Shown: positions 26,505 through 30,176 of the stretch, piece after piece | Layout: each line of letters begins with the position of its first letter | How positions within the stretch are numbered: position 1 is the stretch's first letter | Assembly: GCA_018822665.1 (NCBI GenBank) | Contig: JAHJJX010000034.1 | Location: 1-36,147, forward strand | Source of the DNA: a bacterium | GTDB taxonomy: Bacteria; Campylobacterota; Campylobacteria; Campylobacterales; Sulfurimonadaceae | DNA length: 36,147 bases | Direction of reading: 5' to 3' | Translations under genes and position numbers: made by a program | The notes under the pieces: model-generated | What the model was told of the DNA's origin: nothing | The model's input: the letters and a program-made list of their open reading frames with translations, nothing else | The model's database searches: none

Positions 26505-27161
26505 CTATATTTTAGATTCTAAGATTGATATTTTTTTTAAAATATTTTTTTTCTCGTTTGTATTTACTTCCTTTTGCATCTCCTCTTTTAACCAAAACAA
26601 TACGGCTTTTTTAAAGCCGTGATAAGAAGCAATTTCTATAATGATTGTTCTTTGTTTTTTATCGAGAGTTTCTTTTATTAAAGCAAATGAGAGAAGTTTT
26701 GATGTTGGCACATCCATTTTTAAAATAGTATCACTCGCGCTGATAAAGTTTTTATTTTCCACATGCCAAGCAAAATCTTTATATATTTTTGGTAAATGTT
26801 GAATTTGCTCTTTTTGAAGATTTGAAGTTATAAAGCTGTAGTAAGCATTGAGTGCTTCATTGTTGAGCATATCTTGAATATCAGCAAATTCAGCACATGT
26901 ATCTTTGATGCCTACAGAGATATTTAGTGCACATTTTCCCAAATAGATACGCGCAAGTGGGCTTAAATCAGCACTGACTTTGGCATGACTGATTGCTCTG
27001 TGTAAATCATTTTTGGCCAAAGTGTCATTGGAGCTTAGAAAATTATTTACATACAAGTCGAAGGCTGCTGTGCTTTTATACTGCCATTCATTGGGTGGAG
27101 TTTGAAATGAGCAGGCACTCAGTAGAAAAATAAAAAGAGAAGAGATGATTAAATTTGTCAT
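26505..27161 (-). CDS. lipoprotein of the MCE transport operon
   Basis: A 218-residue protein with a lipoprotein signal: a hydrophobic N-terminus ending in the lipobox LLSAC (cysteine at about residue 16). The rest is helical and charged with no known motif; a histidine-tryptophan segment and two further cysteines are present. ATG 27161 overlaps the MCE stop by 4 bases, so it is translationally coupled. In this phylum the iam-type operon also ends with a lipoprotein gene, and Mla systems use an outer-membrane lipoprotein to pass lipids, so a similar role is likely but inferred. Confidence 0.7.
   Translation of the reverse strand: MTNLIISSLFIFLLSACSFQTPPNEWQYKSTAAFDLYVNNFLSSNDTLAKNDLHRAISHAKVSADLSPLARIYLGKCALNISVGIKDTCAEFADIQDMLNNEALNAYYSFITSNLQKEQIQHLPKIYKDFAWHVENKNFISASDTILKMDVPTSKLLSFALIKETLDKKQRTIIIEIASYHGFKKAVLFWLKEEMQKEVNTNEKKNILKKISILESKI
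26757..26767 (+). repeat. TTCCACATGCC motif copy 8
   Basis: Full 11-base copy inside the lipoprotein gene, read W-H-V-E. Confidence 0.85.
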
Positions 27162-28072
27162 GGTAGTATAACCTCTGATTTTTTCTCATCTTGCATAAGA
27201 GAATCTACCTTGTCCATGATTTGATTAGATTTTTGCATACCGACTGAAATCTGTTCTTTCAATTCGACGATATCTTTGTCTAAACTGCCGAGTGTTTTTA
27301 CGGCTGGGTCCAAAGAATCCAGTTTTTGTTTTATATCTTGCATAATGCCCTCAAGCTCTCTTATCGTTGATGCAGACGGATTAATTATCTCTTTATCAAG
27401 AGAAGCTGTTATTTTTTGAATATCATTTATTATTTGTGCAACCGTATTGAGAGAGTTTATTATATTGTGCGTTGATGCGTCATCACCGGTTATGCTGGTT
27501 AAAAGGGCATCATTTTTGGATAAGTTTTCACTGAATATTTTTATATTGCGCATCGTTTGTATAAGATCTGAATCCCCTTTTGCCAAGTAGGATGCAATGG
27601 TGTCAATAGAAGAAATAATATTAATTAATTTATTTACAGCCGGTTCCAGTTTTGAAATCATATCGTTTATATCATCACTCATCATAATTTCAAGAGTTGA
27701 ACCGGATTGGAGAGGTTCATTTCCAATGGCTGAATACACCTCTATATGCGCAGAGCCAATCAGAGGTTTTTTAAGAATCAGCACACTGTCTTTGCTAATC
27801 CATTTTTTATTATCCGCACTCACGGAAAATGTCATATGTACGCTTCCTTCGTCAGTTAATGCTATTTCATCTATCACACCTATTTTGAATCCGGAAAATT
27901 TAAGAGGCATGCCGACATTAAACGAGTTTGCACTCTCTGTATCAAAATAAAAGCTGTACCTTTTGTCAAACGTGCCTTTTTCATCAAGCAGCAGATACAA
28001 GAATGTACCAATTGTTATCACCAGAGTAATAACAAATATGCCGACTGCGAGTTTCATTTTACTGTATTGCAT
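27158..28072 (-). CDS. MCE-domain (MlaD-like) lipid-binding protein
   Basis: Periplasmic lipid-carrier subunit of an MCE/Mla-type transporter. One N-terminal membrane segment (about residues 7-28) anchors it; the MCE domain follows with YSFYFDTESANSFNVGMPLK, FSGFKIGVIDEIALTD and LKKPLIGSAHIEVY. The C-terminal half is helical and coiled-coil-like. GTG 28078 is in frame, but GAGGGG lies 5 bases before ATG 28072, the preferred start (304 residues). It overlaps the preceding ATPase-like gene by 19 bases and the next lipoprotein gene by 4. Partner genes fit lipid transport between membranes. Confidence 0.87.
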   Translation of the reverse strand: MQYSKMKLAVGIFVITLVITIGTFLYLLLDEKGTFDKRYSFYFDTESANSFNVGMPLKFSGFKIGVIDEIALTDEGSVHMTFSVSADNKKWISKDSVLILKKPLIGSAHIEVYSAIGNEPLQSGSTLEIMMSDDINDMISKLEPAVNKLINIISSIDTIASYLAKGDSDLIQTMRNIKIFSENLSKNDALLTSITGDDASTHNIINSLNTVAQIINDIQKITASLDKEIINPSASTIRELEGIMQDIKQKLDSLDPAVKTLGSLDKDIVELKEQISVGMQKSNQIMDKVDSLMQDEKKSEVILP

Positions 28073-28527
28073 AAACACCCCTCATAATGTATTTCGTTTG
28101 TAATGATATCGAAGATGGTAATTTCTTTGTTATTATTTAAGAGTTGCATATTTTCTAAAATTGTTTGAATACTTTTTAAATCATGAATCAAATAAAAAGG
28201 TGTCAGAATTATAATATTCATCTCTTTGCTCATAAGCGCTCGAATGAGCATAACATAAAAAATATCTGTTGGAGTGCATTGAACCAATCGGAGCAGGCCA
28301 ATATCCTCAAGAGCTATTTTTGCTAGATATTCTTGGGCAAGAGCTTCAGCTTTGCTGATTGGCATAAGTTCATGCACCTCTTTGATGAGCGCAATATTTT
28401 CTAGCATATTCAAGTTTGAAATCAGAGGCGTATCACTTGAGATAAGCGAATAATTTTCATGAGATAATAAATAGTTTTGTATATCTTTGAATTGTTCAAA
28501 GAATTTTACAGTGATTGGAGCAGTAAT
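28054..28527 (-). CDS. degenerate ABC ATPase subunit of the MCE transporter
   Basis: It sits where MCE operons encode the MlaF-like ATPase. PLISNLNMLENIALIKE matches the region around the Q-loop, and the following helices (ISKAEALAQEYLAKIALED) align with MlaF. But there is no GxxxxGK[ST] Walker A, the expected signature reads LLRLVQCTPTDIFYVMLIRA, and Walker B reads NIIILTPF instead of LLLDEP. TTG 28413 or ATG 28407 would give about 119 residues; the frame continues upstream with no stop until inside the permease. ATT 28527 has GAGGTGA just upstream, giving 157 residues and overlapping the permease by 22 bases; no ATG, GTG or TTG lies nearby. Probably a pseudo-ATPase rather than a pseudogene, since the frame is intact. 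Confidence 0.6.
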   Translation of the reverse strand: MTAPITVKFFEQFKDIQNYLLSHENYSLISSDTPLISNLNMLENIALIKEVHELMPISKAEALAQEYLAKIALEDIGLLRLVQCTPTDIFYVMLIRALMSKEMNIIILTPFYLIHDLKSIQTILENMQLLNNNKEITIFDIITNEIHYEGCLCNTVK

Positions 28528-29294
28528 GATATCACCTCGATAAAAAAGATTGCTATGAAAAGCTTTACCATTCCATTAAGCACAGAGATAGGAATAGCCG
28601 TATAGCTGTTGGCAGTTTTCAAGCCGCTGTAAATAGGGATAAGCATAGTAACAAATCCAAACGATACCCCTTTGAGCAGTAAAATAACTAAGTCCTGAAC
28701 TTCAATAGCATCGATGAGCAAATTTTTATAGGAGTGCAAATCCATATCCATATAAAAAAGAGTAAATACATAACCGCTACTAAGCATAATGAGTGCAAAA
28801 AGGATTGAAAGGGAGGTAATGCTGATAATTCCGCTGATAATTCTTGGTAAAAACAGATAATTAATTAAGTCTATTTCATACTCTTTTAGAGTGTTGAGCT
28901 CCTTATTTACTTTCATGACGGCTATCTCTGTATTTATAGCTGTTCCGGAGCGAAGCGATATAAGCAAGGCGGTAAAAAAAGGTGAGAATTCATCGATGAC
29001 AAAGGTGATGATTATGGAACCGATTCGGTCTTGAAGATTATATTCCGTAGCTAAAACGATAACAACCCCGATAATTACCGAACCAAAAAGAAAAGCCATC
29101 ATAATAAAAAGAGGTATGATGCCAACGGCCGTAAAATAGATTTGTTTGGTAAGAACCATTCTCATAGCAGGATTATAACTTAGAGGCTGTACCATGTGAA
29201 TAAGACAAATAGCAGTAAATTTGACAGCTTCATACACCGAAGAGAGCGTATGGATAGTTTTTTCGCCAACACCTTCCACAAATCTTAAAATCAC
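28506..29294 (-). CDS. MlaE-type ABC transporter permease
   Basis: Inner-membrane permease of the MCE transport system. The 262 residues have about five or six membrane segments; the conserved MlaE core is seen in VLTKQIYFTAVGIIPLF, then FFTALLISLRSGTAINTEIA, and YEIDLINYLFLPRIISGI. It corresponds by position to iamB of Campylobacter, where the order permease, ATPase, MCE, lipoprotein is known. GTG 29294 has AGGAG 9 bases upstream. It is the first gene of the minus-strand operon and divergent from the interrupted phosphatase gene. The downstream ATPase-like gene starts inside its last codons. Confidence 0.87.
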   Translation of the reverse strand: MILRFVEGVGEKTIHTLSSVYEAVKFTAICLIHMVQPLSYNPAMRMVLTKQIYFTAVGIIPLFIMMAFLFGSVIIGVVIVLATEYNLQDRIGSIIITFVIDEFSPFFTALLISLRSGTAINTEIAVMKVNKELNTLKEYEIDLINYLFLPRIISGIISITSLSILFALIMLSSGYVFTLFYMDMDLHSYKNLLIDAIEVQDLVILLLKGVSFGFVTMLIPIYSGLKTANSYTAIPISVLNGMVKLFIAIFFIEVISLLLQSL

Positions 29295-29387: not shown

Positions 29388-30176
29388 ATGAGAAATATAT
29401 ACTTGATTATTGCAAAACAAATTGTGAATGAAGCCGGAAAAATTATAAAAGAGGCCAGAGCTACAAATACTTTTGGATTTAGTTTTAAAGACAACGATAC
29501 TCCGATTACAAATATAGACAAGCAGATTCAGCAATACATCTCGAAGCGTTTAAAAGATAGTTTTGAGATACAGGTGACGGGGGAAGAGGATGACTCGTGG
29601 GTGGATAAGTCTAAACCTTATTGGTCGATAGACCCGATAGACGGAACCTGAGCCTTTATTACCCATGAAAATACATCTGCTATAAATTTATCACTCATTG
29701 ATGAAGGAGAGGTTGTCTTGGGCATAGTTTTTAACCCTTTTACGGACGAATTCTTTCATACGGAAAAAGGAAGCGAATCTTATATAGGGATGTTAAAACT
29801 TCCTCTTCGTGAAAATGAAAATGTAACGGTTGTAAACTTTAAACCCGAGAGAGAACATCCTATTGTCAATAATCTCAACCAACTTTTTAAAGAAAACAAG
29901 GTGAAAAAACTTGTTTCTATCGGGGGCTCCGTGACCTATTCTATGTGTATGGTTGCAAAAGGCGCTTTTAGTAATTATATAGCCCATTTTGATGACTATT
30001 CGAGTTCGTGGGACCTTTCTGCGGCTGTCATTATTGTAAGAAATAGCGGCGGATTTGTGACGGATTTGCAAGGAAAAGATATAGATGCAATCCACCACAA
30101 GGGGTATATCATAGCAAGTGCAAATGAAAGTGTACAAAATGAATTTTTAGACATGATGAATGCTTTTTGTGAATAA
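29388..30176 (+). pseudogene. inositol monophosphatase / CysQ-family phosphatase with in-frame TGA
   Basis: Family enzymes remove phosphate from inositol monophosphate, histidinol phosphate or PAP. The frame from ATG 29388 carries DTPITNIDKQIQ, the metal-ligand region GEEDD, and WSIDPIDGT, then TGA at 29649-29651, then AFITHENTSAINLSL in the same frame, ending with SSSWDLSAAVIIVRNSGG (C-terminal metal site). Joined, it has 262 residues, the family length. The stop sits right after the catalytic DPIDGT, where relatives often have Trp or Arg, so one base change (TGG, CGA or AGA to TGA) would explain it. A selenocysteine is unlikely: no clear stem follows the TGA. It may be a recent mutation or an error in the sequence. 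Stop ends 2 bases before the convergent small gene. Confidence 0.75.

Follow-up and report, generated by a model that had tools for sequence, protein, structure and literature searches.

A four-gene operon for an MCE-type lipid-transport system carries, in the slot of its ATPase subunit, a pseudo-ATPase: a truncated ABC domain predicted to have lost its ATP site. The operon itself, the conserved Shine-Dalgarno (SD) sequence and AUU codon at the head of the pseudo-ATPase frame, and five related operons with no ATPase gene and an eroded coupling helix in the permease are established here by sequence or prediction. That the pseudo-ATPase is a real, conserved gene family seems to us practically certain. 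We lean towards a complex that uses no ABC motor of its own at all, with its energetics and the transport of lipids being inferred.

The operon and its pseudo-ATPase

The window, meaning the whole stretch of 36,147 nucleotides that was analysed, contains a minus-strand run of four genes (MlaE permease, pseudo-ATPase, MCE gene and lipoprotein gene) whose neighbours overlap. The features are as follows.

28506..29294, minus strand: MlaE-type permease, 262 residues, without a STAS domain (PF02405, 152.7 bits, cut-off 22.5)
28842..28922, minus strand: coupling-helix segment of the permease, residues 125-151, AVMKVNKELNTLKEYEIDLINYLFLPR (aligned to canonical MlaE), presumed docking site of the pseudo-ATPase
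28533..28538, minus strand: SD sequence GAGGTG within the permease gene, conserved in relatives
28525..28527, minus strand: ATT, putative AUU start of the pseudo-ATPase, found in this position in all members read
28054..28527, minus strand: pseudo-ATPase, a truncated ABC nucleotide-binding domain without ATP site (sequence, profile and model)
27158..28078, minus strand: MCE (MlaD-type) protein with a long C-terminal part (PF02470, 29.1 bits, cut-off 25.1)
26505..27161, minus strand: operon lipoprotein, all-helical model (no Pfam match at E <= 1)

The limits of the coupling-helix segment are our own choice. For the membrane protein, the only Pfam match at E <= 1 is MlaE, not the PqiA/LetA type, and lipid transport by this system is inferred from homology. 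The start of the MCE gene overlaps the stop of the pseudo-ATPase. The lipoprotein has a Cys17 that is invariant across 21 rows and an AlphaFold pLDDT of 93.1; a fold search with it against the PDB gave no match at E <= 0.001. Permease and MCE homologues are present in 21 of 21 named loci (the MCE ones by blastp) and the lipoprotein in 20. The pseudo-ATPase sits just 3' of an MlaE-type permease, and an MCE-like ORF comes next where the contig extends.

One locus, L053, is an exception to this order. In that one genome, an ORF of 451 residues with a P-loop (GKNGSGKT) is inserted directly 3' of the pseudo-ATPase, and the lipoprotein is found about 1.6 kb beyond its usual position. Elsewhere in the window, at 29388-30176 on the plus strand, a gene which we take to be inositol monophosphatase-like is broken by an in-frame TGA at 29649-29651. 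This position is Trp in two intact relatives (L064 and L075), and the TGA is either a nonsense mutation or an assembly error.

The pseudo-ATPase has 157 residues, from the ATT at 28527 to the TGA at 28054-28056. The initial annotation of this DNA had described an intact frame next to an intact permease and MCE gene; the frame is open from 28575, and both neighbours match their families. An ORF search limited to ATG, GTG and TTG finds at most 119 residues, from a TTG at 28413.

The initial annotation also held that the gene lacks Walker A, the ABC signature and the acidic pair of Walker B, and the alignments agree. No ABC_tran match is found in Pfam at E <= 1, and the protein is not among the 31 ABC_tran matches of its own genome. 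Walker A (GxxxxGK[ST]) is absent in all 27 rows of alignment A2. At the signature (LSGGQ/M site) these rows have C or L, followed mostly by T, S, N or D and then by a variable column, and at Walker B the Asp is kept in 4 of 27 and the Glu in none. As for the Q-loop, said to be retained, the region is there and the glutamine is not: the aligned position is mostly K, E, S, I, V or M in the 27 relatives. Residues 34-53, just after the Q-loop, are the least variable part of the protein, with a mean entropy of 1.02 bits against 1.61-2.42 in nine other segments.

A structure prediction set against MlaF had been proposed as a check, and it returns an ABC fold. The AlphaFold model (21 sequences; pLDDT 88.9, pTM 0.86) falls on ABC nucleotide-binding domains with Foldseek and VIA-align. 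On E. coli MlaF (6xbd_I) it gives Z 13.5 and rmsd 2.7 over 151 residues, with model residues 2-157 on chain residues 33-217; the part before chain residue 33 is absent. MlaF is not singled out by the fold, because other ABC ATPases fit equally (best Z 14.2). Compared profile to profile with 19 canonical MlaF of the order, the family scores E 1.7e-5 over 107 columns; against ABC ATPases of the PDB its profile reaches a best E of 1.8e-8. Single-sequence matches are weak (E 0.012 and 0.31). In the canonical sets, permeases cover 27 of 30 loci, MlaF starts were located in 25 of 30, alignment A4 holds 19 of 27 MlaF, and L098 is not included.

Sequence and prediction thus point to a protein of ABC-fold ancestry whose ATP-site motifs have been lost; the absence of ATP binding and hydrolysis is inferred. 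None of the homologues read has a working ATP site. The member L061 (genome G470, family f6) is longer, with 216 residues, and has a degenerate P-loop-like stretch, ADGSRTS. It is not in A2, and it reads IIEP at Walker B, so the Glu may survive there. It is an apparent intermediate between MlaF-like and truncated forms.

A mixed dimer of the pseudo-ATPase with canonical MlaF, on the pattern of transporters that have one degenerate ATP site, is an alternative reading. An ABC site takes Walker A and Walker B from one subunit and the signature from the other. The remnant has none of the three, so no complete site would form. Its model covers MlaF residues 33-217 only and ends before the C-terminal extension, which links MlaF dimers according to the available part of PMC7367683. 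Degenerate heterodimeric ABC transporters do exist (CydDC; PMC10374445, available in part), and we nevertheless regard such a dimer here as very improbable.

Of 135 genomes of the genus, which we take to be Sulfurimonas, 28 have a homologue, with 40-62% identity to the window's copy (itself excluded). Among good genomes (at least 90% complete, at most 5% contaminated) 18 of 79 carry the gene. The full frame is intact in 26 of the 28 members; one of the others (L016) has an N and a stop, and the second (L026) is cut by a contig end. Searching 398 genomes of the order with a profile adds 17 strong members, from other genera of the family and from families f6, f10, f20 and f21. In this search at least 189 genomes had a match, and members were accepted down to E 1.4e-17 (L061), the next match being at 8.2e-11. 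Two weaker matches, L062 and L063, were rejected as ordinary ABC ATPases with Walker A, and the remaining weaker ones were judged by frame length. In a phylum sample of 397 genomes at E <= 1e-14, all 22 matches fall inside the order; distant members could be missed.

A sequencing error or a lone pseudogene is ruled out by this distribution, since the same truncated gene recurs in 28 genomes of the genus and in other Campylobacterales families, at the same place. A full-length working ATPase in this slot, which would have marked the window's gene as a decayed copy, was found in none of the relatives read. The proposal of a family whose ATPase subunit was stripped of its ATP site is therefore supported by sequence, predicted fold and conservation, with the loss of ATP binding itself being inferred.

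The gene is under purifying selection, as far as sequence comparison can tell. Nei-Gojobori dN/dS in the six closest pairs is 0.10, 0.17, 0.18, 0.26, 0.32 and 0.54, rough values with synonymous sites near saturation. Median pN/pS is 0.49 for the pseudo-ATPase, 0.25 for the permease and 0.39 for the MCE gene, which makes the pseudo-ATPase the most variable. Neither alignment A1 nor the dN/dS test includes L016 or L026.

The start codon of the pseudo-ATPase

The start at 28527 given by the initial annotation is the first base of a conserved ATT. This ATT stands at the same place in 45 of 45 members read (28/28 in the genus, 16/16 others, and L061), and none has an NTG there. Upstream of it, GAGGTG is found in all 28 genus members and in L061, and GAGGTG or GGAGG in 16/16 others, at a normal SD spacing. 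Both elements fall within the permease frame; in 42 of 44 sequences its stop codon starts 19 nt past the first base of ATT.

The permease codons bear the mark of these elements. In 44 sequences, 66 permease columns are at least 90% conserved (Met and Trp excluded), and four of them hold one codon in at least 95%: GAG (44/44), GTG (40/41), TCA (44/44) and TTA (42/44). These four are exactly the columns that contain the SD (GAG and GTG) and the ATT (TCA and TTA).

An in-frame stop ends 9 nt before ATT in 11 of 44, and an upstream in-frame NTG occurs in only 4 of 44 (within 20 codons in 2). Downstream, the first NTG falls within 50 codons in 41 of 44, anywhere from codon 4 (an ATG in L017, a point against the AUU reading) to codon 46 and at no shared N-terminal position; the other three have no NTG in the first 50 codons. 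A start at the preceding ATC was rejected because that codon is not conserved (ATC 39, CTC 3, GTC 2 of 44). As a control, the first in-frame NTG of canonical MlaF is ATG in 24 and TTG in 1 of 25 genes, located among 30 loci. A Walker A restored upstream by a corrected sequence, which would have undone the reading of a truncated subunit, finds no room: the frame there overlaps the permease, and the stop just described closes it in the 11 sequences.

The SD assignment rests on the anti-SD of bacteria in general, because a pattern search for the 16S 3' end in this genome found nothing. The infC gene of the same genome, considered as an AUU control, was set aside as ambiguous, since a TTG precedes an ATT in it.

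The remnant might instead be made as a permease fusion through -1 ribosomal frameshifting. The two frames overlap in the right (-1) sense, and a TTTAAAY heptamer is present in the overlap in 4 of 44. This heptamer is limited to those four and lies 54 nt upstream of ATT. Where the stop precedes ATT by 9 nt, about 30 nt are left, with no X XXY YYZ site, and the conserved codons are those of an SD and an ATT at normal spacing. We give frameshifting hardly any weight.

The loci without an ATPase gene, described below, bear on the start in two ways. The SD codon GAG has become GAA in L132, L133 and L134, as expected if the lost gene had held the SD, and is kept in L136; L137 is not included. The string TCATT, which holds the ATT, persists in L132, L133 and L134 and is lost in L136. 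The ATT thus appears less clearly released than the SD, and its conservation could partly reflect permease ancestry. For this reason, the persistence of TCATT in three of four loci, our confidence was lowered by a small step. We remain highly confident, from comparative evidence and without initiation data, that translation of the pseudo-ATPase would start at AUU, probably at a low level, as we infer.

The AUU is probably kept owing to frame geometry. An NTG start is hard to reach, because the overlapping permease codon, in the last helix, would become TGN (Cys, Trp or stop). With ATT, this codon is TTN (Leu or Phe) instead.

The accessible parts of two papers list AUU or AUA starts in infC, pcnB and the staphylococcal cvfC1 and ccpN (PMC13009471, PMC1780047), and the first states that such starts behind extended SDs yield about 10% of AUG. 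A point against the present reading is that another proposed AUU start, in the Borrelia nicotinamidase, has since been reported to be an annotation error (PMC13398362, partial text). The present gene shares with the listed genes a conserved non-canonical start and a strong SD, which were demonstrated for the staphylococcal genes in the text available. It differs in that the start is fixed within the coding frame of another gene and belongs to a transporter subunit, and it has no experimental proof.

Operons without an ATPase and the coupling helix

A search of the 135 genus genomes with the window's permease found 28 close type-2 permeases (65-100%) and five at 40-46%. The 28 all belong to the 28 genomes with a pseudo-ATPase. 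In the five (G037, G117, G018, G109 and G127) MCE comes directly after the permease and the lipoprotein after MCE, and no gene for an ATPase intervenes. The genus thus yielded 33 type-2 systems: 28 with a pseudo-ATPase and 5 without an ATPase gene. In a tree, 44 type-2 permeases stand on one side of a fully supported branch (100/100) and 27 canonical ones on the other; within the type-2 group a long-branch warning applies to L053, L060 and L058.

The G109 locus is split over two contigs, permease included. In L136 (G127) the permease, at about 1750-2430, has a frame break that reflects either genuine decay or an indel of the assembly. Among genomes without a pseudo-ATPase, G018, G037, G085, G090, G109, G117 and G127 each have two or three matches to MlaE; in all of these except G085 and G090 they include the ATPase-free permeases.

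Three ATPase-free permeases that were tested still match PF02405 (92, 34 and 90 bits). In E. coli MlaE, the coupling helix links TM2 and TM3 and contacts MlaF, by the available part of PMC7790496; in canonical ABC systems a cleft of the ATPase receives this helix (PMC7367683 and PMC7790496, both in part). The ATPase-free permeases have 2-11 residues deleted in this segment. They keep few of its 13 conserved columns: 2 in L132, 1 in L133, 5 in L134, 4 in L135 and 0 in the first piece of L136. Outside it they keep 39/50, 30/50, 35/50, 22/50 and 24/32, respectively, L135 being a partial protein in this count. Nine permeases accompanied by a pseudo-ATPase keep 10-13 of the 13 columns, without gaps. 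These nine are part of the 44 and were picked mostly for divergence, and the ATPase-free permeases are distant from the window's overall, at 39-44% identity.

That subunit loss and an eroded docking helix go together is the strongest evidence we have, both for the seat of the remnant and for a permease that needs no ABC motor. From it we infer, with good though not full confidence and no data on complex formation, that the pseudo-ATPase docks on the coupling helix of the permease.

Some of the ATPase-free operons may be decaying, because there are only five, with one broken frame and one split permease. Carried over to the whole operon, the same suspicion would make the pseudo-ATPase a functionless fossil frame. 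Its patchy distribution (28/135), the five operons just described with their one broken permease, and a pN/pS above that of its neighbours would all fit. We judge this very improbable. Of the 28 genus members, 26 have an intact frame and two are limited by assembly, and intact frames also occur in further families of the order. Five of the six closest pairs have dN/dS values of 0.10-0.32, synonymous constraint holds the start site, and MCE and lipoprotein are retained.

The initial annotation left two sources of energy, a separate ATPase or passive transport, and suggested a search for an MlaF-like ATPase elsewhere in the genome. There is one. The same genome has a full canonical set: a longer permease, MlaF with an intact Walker A (GPSGCGKT) and an ISGGM signature, MCE, and a further ORF with a lipoprotein-like start. 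The canonical permease has 371 residues; judging from MpcE (PMC12436622, available in part), we interpret the roughly 110 extra ones at its N-terminus, by analogy, as a fused STAS domain. Canonical MlaF (E <= 1e-50) accompanies the pseudo-ATPase in 39 of 45 carriers, or in 30 of 32 when only good genomes are counted. Two good carriers have no such match: G219, which has a further MlaE (231 bits), and G371, where the type-2 MlaE is the only one found.

In mycobacteria, a single unlinked ATPase, MceG, serves the Mce systems. The cell's canonical MlaF could likewise drive the permease in trans, with the pseudo-ATPase as a placeholder or regulator that gives way to it, and both the intact MlaF of this genome and its presence in most carriers would suit this. 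The co-occurrence says little and is expected anyway, since some kind of MlaE is found in 129 of 135 genus genomes. The remnant has retained the surface with which it would compete for the coupling helix, and the helix itself differs (canonical TMGFDP-type, ykID-type here). The five ATPase-free permeases have eroded this helix, with more of the rest kept. The missing STAS domain is only weak evidence against MlaF docking, as Veillonella has MlaEFD without MlaB in the portion of PMC10665443 at hand. Supply in trans is not excluded, and we consider it unlikely. A separate ATPase is thus disfavoured by the five genomes without an ATPase gene in the operon and by their eroded docking helix, and of the two options the passive one is favoured, as an inference.

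A proposed motor-free MCE system and its relatives

We propose that the four proteins would form a second, accessory MCE lipid-transport complex whose own ABC motor is no longer used. Its ATPase subunit would have been cut down to the part that grips the permease, namely the helical subdomain plus the residues near the Q-loop, with the ATP-binding part deleted or eroded. The remnant may cap the cytoplasmic face of the permease on the coupling helices, in a structural role in assembly or gating, which is inferred. MCE protein and permease would then move or exchange lipids between the inner membrane and the MCE tunnel, either passively or with a driving force other than ATP on the complex; these steps are also inferences.

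In evolutionary terms, an MlaE-type transporter would have lost its motor, with the dead ATPase at first retained as a subunit for docking. We put only a little more than even trust in the complete history, in which a lineage of MlaE-fold permeases lost the ATP site, kept an AUU-started cap for docking or gating, and then lost cap and coupling helix to arrive at motor-free lipid transfer to an MCE conduit.

The closest known systems each share a part of this arrangement. As in MlaFEDB, the phospholipid ABC transporter of E. coli, there is an MlaE-type permease, an MCE protein and, where MlaF would be, a subunit with the ABC fold; here, however, this subunit lacks both ATP site and C-terminal extension and has a putative AUU start, the operon has no STAS domain, and some relatives lack any ABC subunit. 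Mycobacterial Mce/YrbE operons likewise combine an MlaE-like permease with MCE genes and lack a working ATPase. There the working ATPase, MceG, is unlinked and acts in trans, whereas the present operon encodes a dead one.

The four-gene layout resembles that of Brucella Mpc (STAS-MlaE, MlaF, MCE and lipoprotein; PMC12436622, partial text), which is comparable to the canonical paralogue of this genome with its intact MlaF. The present operon differs in its dead or missing motor, its permease without STAS and its helical lipoprotein without Pfam match. Finally, PqiABC and LetAB are MCE systems whose membrane protein has no ATPase domain, according to the available part of the same paper. The present system may also work without an ATPase subunit in MCE-based lipid transport, but with an MlaE ABC permease (PF02405) instead of PqiA/LetA and with a retained remnant of an ABC domain.

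Among the open-licence PMC papers searched, judged by title and abstract opening, no MCE system with a pseudo-ATPase is reported, MlaE that is naturally without MlaF is not described, and nothing appears on MlaE in Sulfurimonas. One survey, in the part available, mentions MlaDE clusters and calls MlaF annotations uncertain (PMC10665443).

The gene also offers a clean case of a conserved, putative AUU start, and a search restricted to ATG, GTG and TTG misses its inferred N-terminus. More broadly, our results suggest that a pump-like lipid machine in some Campylobacterales works without an ATP motor of its own. The role of ATP in MCE lipid transport and the direction of lipid flow are debated, and the natural series within one genus, from a working through a dead to a missing motor on the same permease fold, makes this debate directly testable.
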